This document shows positions 25,565 to 30,646 of a DNA stretch of 55,244 nucleotides, in pieces. Origin of the DNA: Chloroflexota bacterium (GTDB lineage: Bacteria; Chloroflexota; Anaerolineae; Anaerolineales; UBA11858); contig JABGRQ010000119.1 in assembly GCA_018648225.1 (NCBI GenBank), positions 1 to 55,244 on the forward strand. The letters are read 5' to 3'. The position numbers and the translations under genes are program-made. Each line of letters starts with the position of its first letter. Within the stretch, counting starts at the first letter, position 1. Below the pieces are notes generated by a model. That model had not been told where the DNA came from and searched no databases. It saw only the letters and a list, made by a program, of their open reading frames with translations.

Positions 25565-28327
25565 CTAAAGCCGTTCTTTTACCCACTCCGCCACGGTAGT
25601 TAATGCATCCTGGAGTTTGCTGGCATCTTTTCCGCCTGCTTGGGCGAGGGTAGGTTTACCGCCGCCGCCGCCGCCGAGGGGTGTGGCAACAAATTTGACG
25701 AGATCGCCTGCTTTCAGGCCGCGTTTGACCAAATCTTCCGTAACCGCCGCGATGAGCATTGGTTTATCATTAATCATGCTGGCGATGACGGCGACGCCGT
25801 TTTCGGGGTGGCGCTGGCGGAAAGTATCGGCCATTTGGCGCAGGGTATCGGCATCGGCATCTTTGAGCGTGGCGGTGAGCACATCCACACCGCCGATATT
25901 AGATGTATTATCCAGTAAGCGGGTGAAATCCACTGAGGCCAGGCGTTGACGCAGTTCGGCGATTTTTTTGCGATTTTCATTCAGATCGTTTAGCATCCCC
26001 TCCGCTTTTTCGAGGATTTTCTCCGGGGTGGTGGAGAGCGCTGCGGCGGCCTGATTAAGAACGCGGAAGCGGCGCTGGATGAGTTTATAGGCTTCGCGCC
26101 CGGTGACGGCCTCGATGCGCCGAATTCCGGCGGCGGCGCTGCCTTCGCTGATGATGACGAAAGTGCCAATCTCGCCGGTGTTGTCGCAGTGGGTGCCGCC
26201 GCAGAGTTCATTGGAGTAAGCTTCGGTTTCAGCGGGGCCATTAATAGTGATATTGCGCACAGTTTCGCCGTATTTCTCGCCAAAGAGGGCGCGCGCGCCT
26301 TCGTCGATGGCTTGCTGCAAGGGTTTAAAGTGAATATCCAGCTTGCGGTCTTCCAGAATGCGCTGGTTGACTTCGGCCTCGATTTTTTCGAGTTCTTCGC
26401 TACTCACGGCCTCAGGATGCGTGAAATCGAAGCGCAGACGGTCGGGTGCAACCAGCGAACCGGCTTGTCGGGCGTGGCTGCCCAGGTATTTATCGAGGGC
26501 GTAGTGCAGCAGGTGCGTGGCGGTGTGATTGCGCATAATATCTTTGCGGCGGGCGGCATCGATTTGGGCGACGACTTTGTCGCCAACTTTGGGTGTTCCG
26601 GAGACGACTTCACCGATTAAGGTGATAATTCCGGCCGCGGCGCGGCGCGTATTGGTGATGTGAATCTCCCACCCCCCCTCACTCCCCCCCGCTTGCGGGG
26701 GGGAGGCGGAGGGAGGGCGAATAACCGTACCCGTATCACTAACCTGCCCACCCGATTCGATGTAGAAATGGGTCTTGGGGAGTAGTAGCTCTACGGGGGT
26801 TCCAGGAGCCGCTATCTCGGTCGGCTGACCGTCCACCATCAGGGCCAGGAGTTCACCCTCGAAGGTGAGTTTTCCATAGGGATTGTATTCCACCCCCTCA
26901 GGGGGGAGTTTCCCCTGTGCCTGTAAATTTTTCAGCACGGTGGTGTAAATTTCAACATCTTCGCCACCCAGCGCGCCCATAGCTTTGCCCGCGCCCGAGG
27001 CCAGGCGGTGTGTTTCCATCGCTTGATTAAAACCAAGTTGATCGACATCCAGCCCGCGTTCGCGGGCAATATCGCGGGTGATTTCGAGCGGCATGCCAAA
27101 GGTGGTGTAGAGATCGGCGGCTTGATCGCCGGGGAGGATGCGCTGCCCCGCGGTTTCGATTTCGTTGAGTAGGCTGGCGAGCTGGTCGGTGGCGCGGTCA
27201 AGCGTGCGCTGGAATTGTTCTTCTTCGCGTGTGATGGTGGTGAGAATAGTCTTGCGGTTACGAGTAAGTTCAGGGTAGGCCGCGCCGTAATTCTCGATGA
27301 CGGCCTGTGCAACCGGCGCCAGGAAGGGTTCGTGAAGGCCGAGCATGCCGCCGAAGCGATAGGCGCGCCGGATGATCATGCGACAAATATAATTGCGTCC
27401 CATATTGCCGGGCACAACGCCATCGGCGATCAGGAAGGTTGCCGCGCGGGCATGGTCGGCAATCACGCGGTAGGGGGTGAATTCGGCGTCCACCCGTTCG
27501 TCGTTGTGGCCGGTGAGTTTTTGCGTGGTTTTAATCAGCGGCCAGAGCAAATCGGTACGGTAATTGGAAGTCTTTGTTTGCAATACCGAAACAATGCGCT
27601 CCAGCCCCATACCCGTATCGACATGCGTGGCGGGCAGGGGTTTGAGTTCAGTTGGGCTGAGACGGTTGTACTGGATAAAAACCAGATTCCAGAGTTCGAG
27701 GAAGCGGTCGGTGTCGAGGGTTTCTTCGGTCACGGGGCCGTCTTCGGGGCGTAAGTCGATGTGGATTTCGGAGCACGGGCCGCAGGGGCCAGTGTCGGCC
27801 ATTTCCCAGAAATTTTCTTTGCGACCCAAATAGAATACGTGCTCCGCAGCCATGCCGGGTTGTGCTTTCCAGTATCCGGCGGCTTCTTCGTCGGTGGGGA
27901 TTTCGCCCTTCTCATCCTTGAAGACTGTGGCGTAGAGATTTTCTTTGGGTAAGCCCCAGACGTTGGTGAGTAAATCCCAACCCCATTCGATGGCTTCTTT
28001 TTTATAGTAATCGCCGAAGGACCAGTTCCCCAGCATCTCGAAGAAAGTGTGATGCGTGTCGTCGCGGCCAACATCGTCGAGGTCGTTGTGTTTTCCGGCG
28101 ACGCGCATACATTTCTGCGAGTTGGCGGCGCGTGTGTAGTCGCGCTTGTCGGTGCCGAGAAAAACATCTTTGAATTGCACCATCCCGGCGTTGGTGAAGA
28201 GCAGAGTGGCATCGCCGCCGGGAACCAACGGAGCGGAGGGTACGAAAGTGTGCCCGGCTTTTTCGGCGAAATAATCAATAAACGTTTGGCGAATGGCGTT
28301 ACCGGTAAGATTGTTGGGGATCGTCAT
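25565..28327 (-). CDS. alaS: Alanyl-tRNA synthetase
   Basis: A 920-residue AlaRS that charges tRNA-Ala. The class II core is at residues 1-450 (FTNAGMVQFKDVFLG, then HHTFFEMLGNWSFGDYYK and DTGMGLERIVSVLQ). The editing domain has Zn ligands HTATHLLH (about residue 592) and the CGGTHCDNTG motif near 695. The C-Ala domain ends with a GGGGGG loop. Residues ~536-554 (RPPSASPPQAGGSEGG) have no counterpart in the family and are encoded by a GC-rich palindrome, an in-frame element insertion in a surface loop before the editing domain. The ATG at 28327 has an AGGAGCC ribosome site. Confidence 0.97.
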   Translation of the reverse strand: MTIPNNLTGNAIRQTFIDYFAEKAGHTFVPSAPLVPGGDATLLFTNAGMVQFKDVFLGTDKRDYTRAANSQKCMRVAGKHNDLDDVGRDDTHHTFFEMLGNWSFGDYYKKEAIEWGWDLLTNVWGLPKENLYATVFKDEKGEIPTDEEAAGYWKAQPGMAAEHVFYLGRKENFWEMADTGPCGPCSEIHIDLRPEDGPVTEETLDTDRFLELWNLVFIQYNRLSPTELKPLPATHVDTGMGLERIVSVLQTKTSNYRTDLLWPLIKTTQKLTGHNDERVDAEFTPYRVIADHARAATFLIADGVVPGNMGRNYICRMIIRRAYRFGGMLGLHEPFLAPVAQAVIENYGAAYPELTRNRKTILTTITREEEQFQRTLDRATDQLASLLNEIETAGQRILPGDQAADLYTTFGMPLEITRDIARERGLDVDQLGFNQAMETHRLASGAGKAMGALGGEDVEIYTTVLKNLQAQGKLPPEGVEYNPYGKLTFEGELLALMVDGQPTEIAAPGTPVELLLPKTHFYIESGGQVSDTGTVIRPPSASPPQAGGSEGGWEIHITNTRRAAAGIITLIGEVVSGTPKVGDKVVAQIDAARRKDIMRNHTATHLLHYALDKYLGSHARQAGSLVAPDRLRFDFTHPEAVSSEELEKIEAEVNQRILEDRKLDIHFKPLQQAIDEGARALFGEKYGETVRNITINGPAETEAYSNELCGGTHCDNTGEIGTFVIISEGSAAAGIRRIEAVTGREAYKLIQRRFRVLNQAAAALSTTPEKILEKAEGMLNDLNENRKKIAELRQRLASVDFTRLLDNTSNIGGVDVLTATLKDADADTLRQMADTFRQRHPENGVAVIASMINDKPMLIAAVTEDLVKRGLKAGDLVKFVATPLGGGGGGKPTLAQAGGKDASKLQDALTTVAEWVKERL
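26666..26720. repeat. REP-like palindrome inserted in frame within alaS
   Basis: CCCCCC-rich arms around CCCCCGCTTGCGGGGG, flanked by CTCACTCC and GGAGGCGGAGGGAGG, form a strong hairpin. It corresponds to a Pro/Ser/Gly-rich insert in AlaRS. Its word composition matches the CCTCCCTC...GAGGGAGG type of dispersed bacterial palindromes. Confidence 0.7.
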
Positions 28328-28433
28328 AATGGCTCCTGTTATTTGCTTTATTCGGGGTAGATCATCGAAGTCTTTTCAAGGTTTTGCCCGGATTGAGTAA
28401 TTTTCTGAAGATTTCGGTGGTCTTAATCAAATA

Positions 28434-28458
28434 GCCCGGACATATTATATGTCCGGGC
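28434..28458 (-). terminator. GCCCGGACATA hairpin upstream of alaS
   Basis: An 11-base perfect stem (GCCCGGACATA / TATGTCCGGGC) with a 3-base loop is followed on the minus strand by TATTTGATT. It would end the transcript from the promoter at 28627-28655. It also contains a TATAAT on the minus strand that might serve alaS. Confidence 0.55.
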
Positions 28459-28620
28459 CAATAGTGTTTATCAGAATATTTTCAATAACTTGCAGTTCAG
28501 GCAAGTATTTGCGGCTCGGACGCGGGAACTCCGGCGACTGCCCCGACAGAGACAGCCGCCGTCAGAGCAGCAGCCTTGCTATTGAGTGTAATTATCGAAT
28601 TTTTGAAGCGGTGCATAACG
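28434..28620 (-). ncRNA. Candidate small RNA (or 39-residue peptide gene) upstream of alaS
   Basis: A 388-base gap separates alaS from the lipoprotein gene. It contains, on the minus strand, a promoter (TTGCGG, 17 bases, TATAAT), about 160 bases with strong secondary structure and a closing hairpin terminator. Inside, GGCGGCTGTC pairs with GGCAGTCGCC, and an outer GCAAG...CTTGC pair encloses it. A short frame starting at the ATG at about 28617 would encode 39 residues with an Ala/Val-rich segment (SKAAALTAAVSVGAVAG); it has no Shine-Dalgarno and is only 10 bases from the -10 box. I do not recognise a known RNA family; it lacks T-box, SRP, RNase P and tmRNA hallmarks. 6S-like RNA is possible. 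Confidence 0.35.
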
Positions 28621-28626
28621 GCATAG

Positions 28627-28655
28627 ATTATACGTCAAGAGAGATGATGCCGCAA
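28627..28655 (-). promoter_or_regulatory. Promoter of the candidate small RNA
   Basis: TTGCGG (28650-28655) and a perfect TATAAT (28627-28632) on the minus strand have a 17-base spacer. No annotated gene starts immediately downstream except the 39-codon frame. Confidence 0.55.
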
Positions 28656-28661
28656 GTTCAG

Positions 28662-28708
28662 TCCGGGCTTTTCTCTACTTCCGGATTCAGAAGTGGAGAA
28701 AAGCCCGG
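28662..28708 (-). terminator. Hairpin after the first SH3 lipoprotein
   Basis: An 18-base stem (CCGGGCTTTTCTCTACTT / AAGTGGAGAAAAGCCCGG, one wobble) with a 10-base loop lies 8 bases beyond the stop codon of the lipoprotein gene. No T-run follows on the minus strand. Confidence 0.6.
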
Positions 28709-28715
28709 TTGTCAA

Positions 28716-29651
28716 TCAGGGCGTGATATTTAGCGTTTTAGTGATACAAGTTCCGCCGAGACCATCTTCTGTGCAGACTTTAACGCTGGCATCCAGATCG
28801 TGCCCGGTGGGGTCGTTGTTGAACATCCCACCAACGGTATAGCCAGTGTCGCCGGGGTCGAGATCCTCGTAGGAACTACCTGCCAGGCATCCGTTCCACT
28901 CTTCAAATTTATCATTTTGTGAATTTACGGTCGCGGCTGCATCGTTGTCGGTAACAATTGTCGAGACAGACTTCCACATGACTTCGCCGGTGTTGGTGAG
29001 CTTGAATTCAATATTCCAGCCCACGCAGCTTTCAACCTGATTGAAGGAGACACTGATACCAAATGCAGGTGTAGGCGTAGGCGTGAAGGTTGGCGTGGGC
29101 GGCGGTGTGAACACAGGCAGTGAACCGGTGTCGCCCGTTGTGGTGGCATATTGGCCCCACAGCCAGCAGAATTCACCGGGTTTGTCCGGATTGCGCACAT
29201 ACCAATATTGATTGGATGGGTCGCGGGCAATCACCTCGGTTTTTTCGCCAACCAGCAGCGCGCCCACACGCTTATAGATTTTCCCCGGTCCGATTCGGCA
29301 GTTGGTATCCACCGATACGCTGACCATTGGGACGTTTGAGGTAGGCGTAAACGTGATCGATGGTGTCAGCGTAGGCGTGTCTGTAAAGATAGGGGAGGGC
29401 GTTGCTGTATTCGTGTTGATCGGTGGTGCCTGAGCGGAGTCCTGCCCCGCAGGCGCTTGCTGCCCCTGCGCAGCAGCCACAGTCTGTGCGACTAAAGTTT
29501 GTTGAACAGCGGCATCCACTGAATTTGGCTGTTCCGCAGCGATCTGTTGTCCGCCCGGTAGATTGCATGCCAGAATCAGACTGATCAGGCTGGTACCGAT
29601 GAGCAACCAATAGACATGCTTTTTTGGGAAGGGGGTCTTATCTCGGTTCAT
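28716..29651 (-). CDS. Secreted lipoprotein with bacterial SH3 domain
   Basis: A 311-residue predicted lipoprotein with signal peptide and lipobox ending LISLILAC (Cys about residue 29). An Ala/Gln-rich stretch and a Thr/Pro linker follow. Then comes an SH3b domain (VSVDTNCRIGPGKIYKRVG ... EVIARDPSNQYWYVRNP ... CWLWGQYA), a second PTPTFTPTPTP linker, and a C-terminal ~110-residue beta-rich domain with four Cys (SCVGWNIEFKLTNTGEV ... GTCITKTLNITP) that I cannot name. SH3b domains bind peptidoglycan or peptides. The ATG at 29651 has CAGGAGG upstream; the longer frame is rejected because it runs through a terminator. It is a paralogue of the next gene. Confidence 0.8.
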   Translation of the reverse strand: MNRDKTPFPKKHVYWLLIGTSLISLILACNLPGGQQIAAEQPNSVDAAVQQTLVAQTVAAAQGQQAPAGQDSAQAPPINTNTATPSPIFTDTPTLTPSITFTPTSNVPMVSVSVDTNCRIGPGKIYKRVGALLVGEKTEVIARDPSNQYWYVRNPDKPGEFCWLWGQYATTTGDTGSLPVFTPPPTPTFTPTPTPAFGISVSFNQVESCVGWNIEFKLTNTGEVMWKSVSTIVTDNDAAATVNSQNDKFEEWNGCLAGSSYEDLDPGDTGYTVGGMFNNDPTGHDLDASVKVCTEDGLGGTCITKTLNITP

Positions 29652-29700
29652 CTTGTCTGCCTCCTGTTTTGCACAAAGTTCAAGAAATATGTGGCGAAAG

Positions 29701-29734
29701 ACCTCCGAGATTTTCCGGCGAAAATCTCGGAGGT
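29701..29734 (-). terminator. Terminator between the two SH3 lipoproteins
   Basis: A perfect 14-base stem (ACCTCCGAGATTTT / AAAATCTCGGAGGT) with a 6-base loop lies 13 bases beyond the stop of the upstream paralogue. The T/A-rich inner stem serves as the tract. Confidence 0.75.
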
Positions 29735-29746
29735 CGGGTTCAAAAG

Positions 29747-30646
29747 TTACGGCGTAAAAGTAATTGTCTTTGAGATGCACGTACCACCCAGACCGGGGTC
29801 TGTGCATACGGTTACAGTGGCGGTTACACTGTGACCGGTTGGGTCAGCGCTGAGATTGCCGCTGGGTGCGTAATCGACTCCGCCAGGGCCTATTTCATTT
29901 GAGCTGGTGGATCGCGCGCAGGCGTTCCAGTCTTCAAATTCTTCGTCGTTGTAGTTGACAGTTTCGGCTGTGTCGTTATCCGTCACGCGCACTGAAACCG
30001 ATTCGAAGGCTATATTTCCCGTATTTGTCAGCCGAAACTCAACCCGCCAGTTGGGTGCGCAGGCATCAACCTGGCGAAATACAACTTCAAACCCAACAGA
30101 TGGCGTGGCTGTAAATGTGGGTGTGGGTGTAGGCGGTGGCGTGTAGATCGGCAGGGCGCTGGTATCCCCAACAACAGTGGCGTATTCGCCCCATAGCCAG
30201 CAATAACCGCCGGGGCGATCGGGGTTGCGGACATACCAGTAAAATCCGCTGGGATCGCGGGCGATAACTTCAGTTTCCTCGCCAACCGTCAAGAAACCCA
30301 GTTGGTCGTAGGATTTTCCAGGGCCGTAGCGGCAGTTGGTATCCACCGAAACGCCGACCATCGGTACGCCCGGCGTGGGGCTTTCAGGTGGTAGCGGAGT
30401 TTCCGATGGTGCTACTACCTCTGGCAGCGGGGTTTCCGTCGGGGGAGCGGGCTGTGGGGTATCGCTGGGGCGGCTGGCGGCCTCTACAGTTTGTGCAATA
30501 AAGGTTTGTTGCACGGCGTCGGCGATCACAACTTCGGCGGCGGGTGTCGCTTCGCCACCGGGCATCTCGCAAGCAACAAGAATCAGTGCGAAAAATAAAA
30601 CAATCCATGCGCTGGCGTGTACTTTCCTCGATGAACTTCTTTTCAT
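29747..30646 (-). CDS. Secreted lipoprotein with bacterial SH3 domain, paralogue
   Basis: A 299-residue lipoprotein with signal peptide and lipobox FALILVAC, Cys about residue 26. The architecture is the same as its neighbour: Ala-rich stretch, Pro/Thr linker, SH3b domain (VSVDTNCRYGPGKSYDQLG ... EVIARDPSGFYWYVRNP ... CWLWGEYA), PTPTPTFTATP linker and a C-terminal Cys-containing domain ending GTCISKTITFTP. The SH3b parts are nearly identical over long blocks while the linkers differ, which points to tandem duplication with selection on the folded domains. Each copy has its own terminator. A Shine-Dalgarno-like AAGGAGC sits upstream of the ATG at 30646. The envelope role is inferred. Confidence 0.82.
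   Translation of the reverse strand: MKRSSSRKVHASAWIVLFFALILVACEMPGGEATPAAEVVIADAVQQTFIAQTVEAASRPSDTPQPAPPTETPLPEVVAPSETPLPPESPTPGVPMVGVSVDTNCRYGPGKSYDQLGFLTVGEETEVIARDPSGFYWYVRNPDRPGGYCWLWGEYATVVGDTSALPIYTPPPTPTPTFTATPSVGFEVVFRQVDACAPNWRVEFRLTNTGNIAFESVSVRVTDNDTAETVNYNDEEFEDWNACARSTSSNEIGPGGVDYAPSGNLSADPTGHSVTATVTVCTDPGLGGTCISKTITFTP

Follow-up and report, generated by a model that had tools for sequence, protein, structure and literature searches.

A conserved, apparently leaderless leader peptide upstream of alaS as a predicted alanine attenuator in Anaerolineae

Attenuators of the Trp, His, Phe and Leu type combine a leader frame holding cognate codons, competing antiterminator and terminator structures, and a downstream gene of amino-acid metabolism. 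A survey from 2010 placed leader-peptide attenuators in Proteobacteria and Actinobacteria, plus a His case in Firmicutes, and the part of its text that was covered mentions neither alaS nor Chloroflexi (PMC2965389). The single precedent for a leader peptide of alaS in the searched literature is alaL of S. lividans TK24, a 22-residue peptide with six alanines encoded upstream of alaS; it was proposed as an attenuator from RNA-seq, and the covered sections of that paper call the type previously undescribed in bacteria (PMC8079986). For Chloroflexota/Chloroflexi, the same searches, with subscription papers mostly outside them, returned no alaS attenuator; by term search of the text covered, PMC1262725 gave no occurrence and PMC4833913 a single, unrelated mention of Chloroflexi.

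The window, the whole stretch of 55,244 nucleotides of a Chloroflexota bacterium that was analysed here, carries on its minus strand an alaS gene whose product scores 864 bits against TIGR00344 (cut-off 457) and also matches Pfam tRNA-synt_2c. The gap between alaS and the next minus-strand gene spans 388 bases (28328-28715) and holds, in minus-strand order, TTGCGG, 17 nt, TATAAT, 10 nt, a 39-codon frame, TGA and a 13-bp terminator hairpin, followed by alaS:

28716-29807, minus strand: next gene upstream of the gap
28627-28655, minus strand: promoter by direct reading, -35 TTGCGG (28655-28650), 17-nt spacer, -10 TATAAT (28632-28627)
28497-28616, minus strand: probably leaderless frame for the leader peptide, 39 codons and a TGA, MHRFKNSIITLNSKAAALTAAVSVGAVAGVPASEPQILA, with homologues in six genomes of genus g1
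28566-28574, minus strand: Ala run 1, codons 15-17, GCT GCT GCT, proposed as stall codons together with codons 20-21
28425-28460, minus strand: intrinsic terminator, 13-bp stem with 3-nt loop (28460-28432), then UUUGAUU
25565-28327, minus strand: alaS, alanine--tRNA ligase, the presumed regulated gene

A first-pass annotation of this DNA had described a promoter, hairpin and terminator unit at 28434-28655 within a 388-base gap, and the gap was borne out, with the unit's coordinates fitting almost exactly; promoter, hairpin, terminator and the 39-codon frame (28616-28497) are indeed all read on one strand, the minus strand. Its 'good promoter' holds for the -10 element, a perfect TATAAT, but not for the -35 element: TTGCGG is weak, agreeing with TTGACA at three of six positions, and for this reason a consensus scan listed no promoter at 28627-28655. 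The structured stretch is likewise present, with a stem of 13 bp (28561-28549/28544-28532) rather than the 10 bases given. The annotated terminator is there as well (28460-28432; −21.5 kcal/mol, z −6.9), with a poor U-tract, and it is the sole terminator-like site in the gap, where 0.4 would be expected. No curated RNA family, T-box included, reached threshold in the gap, in agreement with the earlier statement that T-box and other standard RNA hallmarks are missing. The folding z-score of the whole gap (−7.3) is due in part to a separate, near-perfect 46-nt inverted repeat (28663-28708; −33.2 kcal/mol, z −8.4) that lies between the leader promoter and the gene upstream. This repeat has T-runs within its arms and is therefore no ordinary terminator; it has no second copy in the rest of the genome and falls outside the portion of the gap common to G001, and two sub-threshold mir-like matches on it were taken as chance hairpins.

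The distribution of the leader was examined in genomes of the same family, order and class, in which alaS was found in 17 of 21, 135 of 151 and 143 of 150 cases, respectively. With the gap DNA as query, all seven genomes of the genus matched at E up to 1; a homologous frame precedes alaS in six of them (G000-G005), and the seventh (G006) yielded neither alaS nor a leader. We then defined a leader as a frame of 10-60 codons that contains five or more Ala within 12 residues and is followed by a terminator, a definition set after the first matches had been seen. Such leaders were found on the sense strand in 17 of 122 regions upstream of alaS, compared with 1 of 122 antisense and a mean of about 0.5 in shuffles; the other 105, most alaS loci of the order, have none by this definition, nor has any locus of other orders. 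Of the alaS loci of family f1, 13 have 300 nt or more of upstream sequence, and every one of these carries an Ala-rich frame with a terminator. The short frames upstream of alaS in genus g2 are different ones with similar Ala runs (for example, MKQIPIKVDFQVSPTPAAASQAAALIGCAAATDFYLKPGSFSQL), G018 of genus g4 has a leader on a contig that ends within the start of alaS, and G017 of genus g3 has none within its 268 nt upstream of alaS. Shorter frames upstream of alaS occur in family f11 (for example, MQTTLKTTASAQAAAAARATCEPVTA), where 7 of the 15 genomes read have a leader, four by the definition above and three by eye. At one f11 locus (L116, G099) a DUF4926 gene stands in place of the Ala leader peptide, and the terminator and stop-codon region look kept.

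The spacing of promoter and frame was compared across these leaders. Leaders L034, L036, L038 and L029 also show TTGC, a 17-nt spacer and TATAAT. The end of TATAAT lies 6-10 nt from the ATG in 11 of the 13 f1 leaders (exceptions, L035 and L037) and 7-8 nt from it in all seven f11 leaders; the covered text of the S. lividans study gives an average of 6.3 nt from the -10 element to the start site (PMC8079986). From the f1 spacing, the leader frame at 28616-28497 is probably translated from leaderless RNA, the option that the first-pass annotation had allowed for. In five of the six g1 leaders GACGTATAAT (region 28627-28636) is kept, beyond the needs of a -10 element alone, possibly as an extended -10 or a factor site. 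In f11 (L083-L096, L113 and L116), genomes without the leader included, a second TATAAT lies between the terminator and alaS; by eye, none is present there in the f1 loci. The attenuator may merely boost alaS in f11 and exert full control of alaS in f1.

Selection on the frame was assessed together with two RNA segments inside it:

28532-28561, minus strand: helix A, a hairpin of 13 bp (arms 28561-28549 and 28544-28532) that covers Ala codons 20-28, from fold and alignment
28512-28521, minus strand: segment B5, GUCCGAGCCG, located 13-22 nt ahead of the stop codon and proposed to pair with the terminator 5' arm as antiterminator

Across the 13 f1 leaders, run 1 uses GCT at 35 of 39 positions; in the 26 long frames of the window, this codon accounts for 16.1% of those for Ala. 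In the six g1 genomes compared, 12 of 38 leader columns have an invariant third codon position versus 173 of 915 in alaS, and invariant residues keep a single codon in 6 of 12 cases versus 113 of 556. The fixed third positions of the g1 leaders cluster in helix A (GCA-GTC-GCC) and in B5 (xxG-TCC-GAG-yCG), and the first codon of the B5 block holds its final G constant while the residue is A, A, M, T, K and L. Conservation of the frame in six genomes, together with its Ala-rich and partly hydrophobic composition, would suit a functional micropeptide, secreted or in the membrane, that has its own promoter and terminator and merely sits beside alaS. Yet the pre-alaS peptides of other genera are unrelated outside the Ala runs (those of g1 and g2 have little else in common), and the leader peptide differs from genus to genus wherever it lies outside these runs and the pairing segments. 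Furthermore, the residue is changed at 8 of the 12 codon differences between the two closest leaders, and two of these changes, V22I and A26I, jointly convert a G-C pair of helix A to A-U. The first-pass annotation had proposed weighing compensatory changes in the stems against synonymous changes in the frame: the former were found, and most of these 12 codon differences proved non-synonymous. The peptide has no Pfam or NCBIfam match, and such a frame accompanies alaS in each of the 13 f1 regions. A micropeptide function is thus highly unlikely, and we reject it on the divergence between genera and the residue-changing compensatory substitutions. By these comparisons, what is conserved in the leader is the Ala codons and the RNA-pairing segments, not the peptide; the region is both coding and RNA, but not for the sake of its peptide.

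Helix A, located inside the leader frame, folds with −24.7 kcal/mol (z −4.0); its 9-bp core is 98.3% paired in the 13 f1 leaders, with two pairs changed on both sides, and an 8-codon insertion in L035 is located in its loop. Helix A and the terminator jointly have six two-sidedly changed pairs in these leaders compared with 2.3 in shuffles. The annotation had named as refutation an absence of conservation in structure and frame alike; both proved conserved. B5 and the terminator 5' arm are paired in 97.2% of cells in eight leaders (g1, g4 and L041), with no two-sided changes in these pairs within that set. In 11 of the 13 f1 leaders, no other part of the leader complements the arm better than B5, and the segment matching the arm ends 11-14 nt before the stop codon in 9 of 13. 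The same pairing role is open to different letters in a shifted register in g2 (CCGGGC with GCCCGG). Five of the seven f11 leaders have no strong complement of the terminator 5' arm, and, by eye, a segment GCGAACCUG in L087, L089 and L093 could pair with the 3' side of the hairpin.

Folding was then compared for two ribosome positions. With the RNA taken from beyond run 1 up to the arm, as ahead of a ribosome stalled on that run, the antiterminator is formed in 10 of the 13 f1 leaders (exceptions, L038, L029 and L041), and the fold of the window's leader in this state includes one further hairpin:

28488-28506, minus strand: small hairpin spanning the stop codon, ACUUGC/GCAAGU, from the stalled-state fold, also spotted by eye in several relatives

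Once the ribosome occupies the stop codon, all 13 fold into the terminator. When the stalled RNA is folded at full length, each of the 13 leaders favours the terminator, by 3.6 to 16 kcal/mol, and antitermination must therefore be kinetic, with the antiterminator forming first. Against synonymous-codon shuffles, folding reached the 5% level in no more than 2 of 13 leaders, and arm pairing likewise in 2 of 13. A trp-type 1:2 protector, in which the Ala run would pair with B5, looks good by eye in some leaders but is not supported; run 1 ranks 7th to 58th among all 17-mers between the ATG and B5, and such a protector is consequently not claimed. In E. coli, AlaRS is a repressor of its own gene. 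For the alaS leader, feedback through AlaRS or a different protein that binds helix A or the terminator, with the frame incidental, is a further reading. The strong conservation of helix A and the thermodynamic preference for the terminator would fit such feedback, but it leaves unexplained the in-frame Ala runs with their GCU bias as well as the end point of B5, which in 9 of 13 leaders falls 11-14 nt ahead of the stop, and we regard such feedback as very unlikely. The predicted terminated transcript, about 190 nt long and strongly structured, could also be pictured as a small RNA acting in trans from its own promoter up to the terminator; neither conserved codons in frame, nor linkage to alaS, nor an antiterminator segment positioned by the stop codon would be expected of such an RNA, which makes this reading extremely unlikely.

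Based on the frame, its Ala runs, the terminator, the pairing potential, the site before alaS and their conservation, all established by sequence and comparison, we consider it highly probable that the leader senses charged tRNA-Ala and controls alaS by ribosome-mediated transcription attenuation. The first-pass annotation, which had read the unit as a small RNA or micropeptide, correctly recognized the elements but missed that the frame's Ala codons tie it to alaS. We infer the start site, translation, stalling, the switch and a role in pausing as follows. Transcription would begin on the ATG at 28616 or a few bases upstream of it, and the leader frame would be translated by a ribosome. When Ala-tRNA is ample, the ribosome would reach the stop codon, where its footprint would lie over part of B5; with B5 covered, the terminator would form and the RNA would end near 28425. 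When Ala-tRNA is scarce, the ribosome would stall at Ala codons 15-17 and 20-21 and leave B5 free to pair with the terminator 5' arm once this is made, and polymerase would continue into alaS. Helix A could serve as a pause hairpin keeping polymerase and ribosome in step, and attenuation would, on the best reading, yield the terminated short RNA and the peptide as mere by-products.

To test the leader outside its training set, a covariance model (R1) built from the 13 f1 leaders was run against 301 genomes of the order. It matched 27 genomes at E up to 0.01; at E ≤1e-10 the matches were the training leaders plus G016, G025 and extra copies in G009. Those with E above 1e-4 were taken as chance, and the one inspected, in G067 (L196), lies at the end of an unrelated frame. 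The search, which the first-pass annotation had suggested, thereby recovered a leader upstream of alaS in G025, a genome of family f6 outside the training set. This leader, MDHFSNIRYSIIPASALKAVVAFAAAAAEFPPN, has helix A and the terminator, and in the stalled fold the CCGGGCG beside its stop codon pairs with the CGCCCGG arm; it has no TATAAT close before the ATG. A 211-residue frame and then alaS follow, and G025 had earlier been scored as negative because the leader lies about 700 nt upstream of alaS. G009 holds extra, near-identical copies of the alaS leader (L201 and L202): one precedes a DUF4160/DUF2442 pair that is itself upstream of the alaS leader, and two copies flank a DUF4258 gene and a 73-residue frame, as if small toxin-antitoxin-like modules had entered at the leader, accompanied by its duplication. 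In G016, an assembly in which no alaS was found, a leader copy with an eroded Ala run (L203) precedes a 69-residue frame resembling the 73-residue frame of G009. That the leader is a portable control cassette, with toxin-antitoxin-like modules captured under an alanine attenuator and so tied to alanine starvation, seems unlikely; the reading rests on G009, where near-identical sets of promoter, Ala peptide and terminator stand before the DUF4160/DUF2442 and DUF4258 sets, these being neighbours of alaS or enclosed by leader copies.

The other synthetase genes of the window's genome, with gene names read from first residues, were compared with alaS. The T-box family RF00230 matches at ileS with 111.5 bits (gathering score 93) and at serS, thrS and leuS with 57-72 bits, below that score; these three genes are probably also under T-boxes (T-box loci of this genome, L168, L169, L173 and L174). 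At alaS, in contrast to the four loci above, no T-box match appears, whether the gathering score or E up to 1 is taken as the limit, and no leader with cognate codons is evident at 11 other synthetase loci of this genome. The alaS leader offers a comparative case of a predicted alanine attenuator in Anaerolineae, in a genome where ileS has a T-box and serS, thrS and leuS probably have one too. It makes testable how ribosome and polymerase are coupled on a leaderless leader peptide, and why alaS relies on translation and not on a T-box; the leader set also consists of tiny frames that annotation likely misses.

Taken together, the comparisons provide good support for an alanine attenuator, a kind of switch already known, that is conserved and apparently leaderless and would act on alaS. 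It shares with the Trp, His, Phe and Leu attenuators the cognate-codon frame, the terminator, for which a competing antiterminator is proposed, and the downstream gene of amino-acid metabolism, and differs from them in its Ala codons and alaS, its apparently leaderless frame and its having no supported 1:2 protector. As with the T-box (RF00230), read-through into the synthetase gene would rise when the tRNA is uncharged; the T-box senses this by direct tRNA binding, whereas the alaS leader would sense it by translation. With alaL it has in common a short Ala-containing frame upstream of alaS; alaL belongs to another phylum, and its printed peptide, compared by eye, has no evident similarity beyond Ala, so the two are probably convergent. 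For the Anaerolineae leader, comparison adds a helix, a proposed antiterminator segment and a terminator, detail that the covered text on alaL does not contain (PMC8079986).
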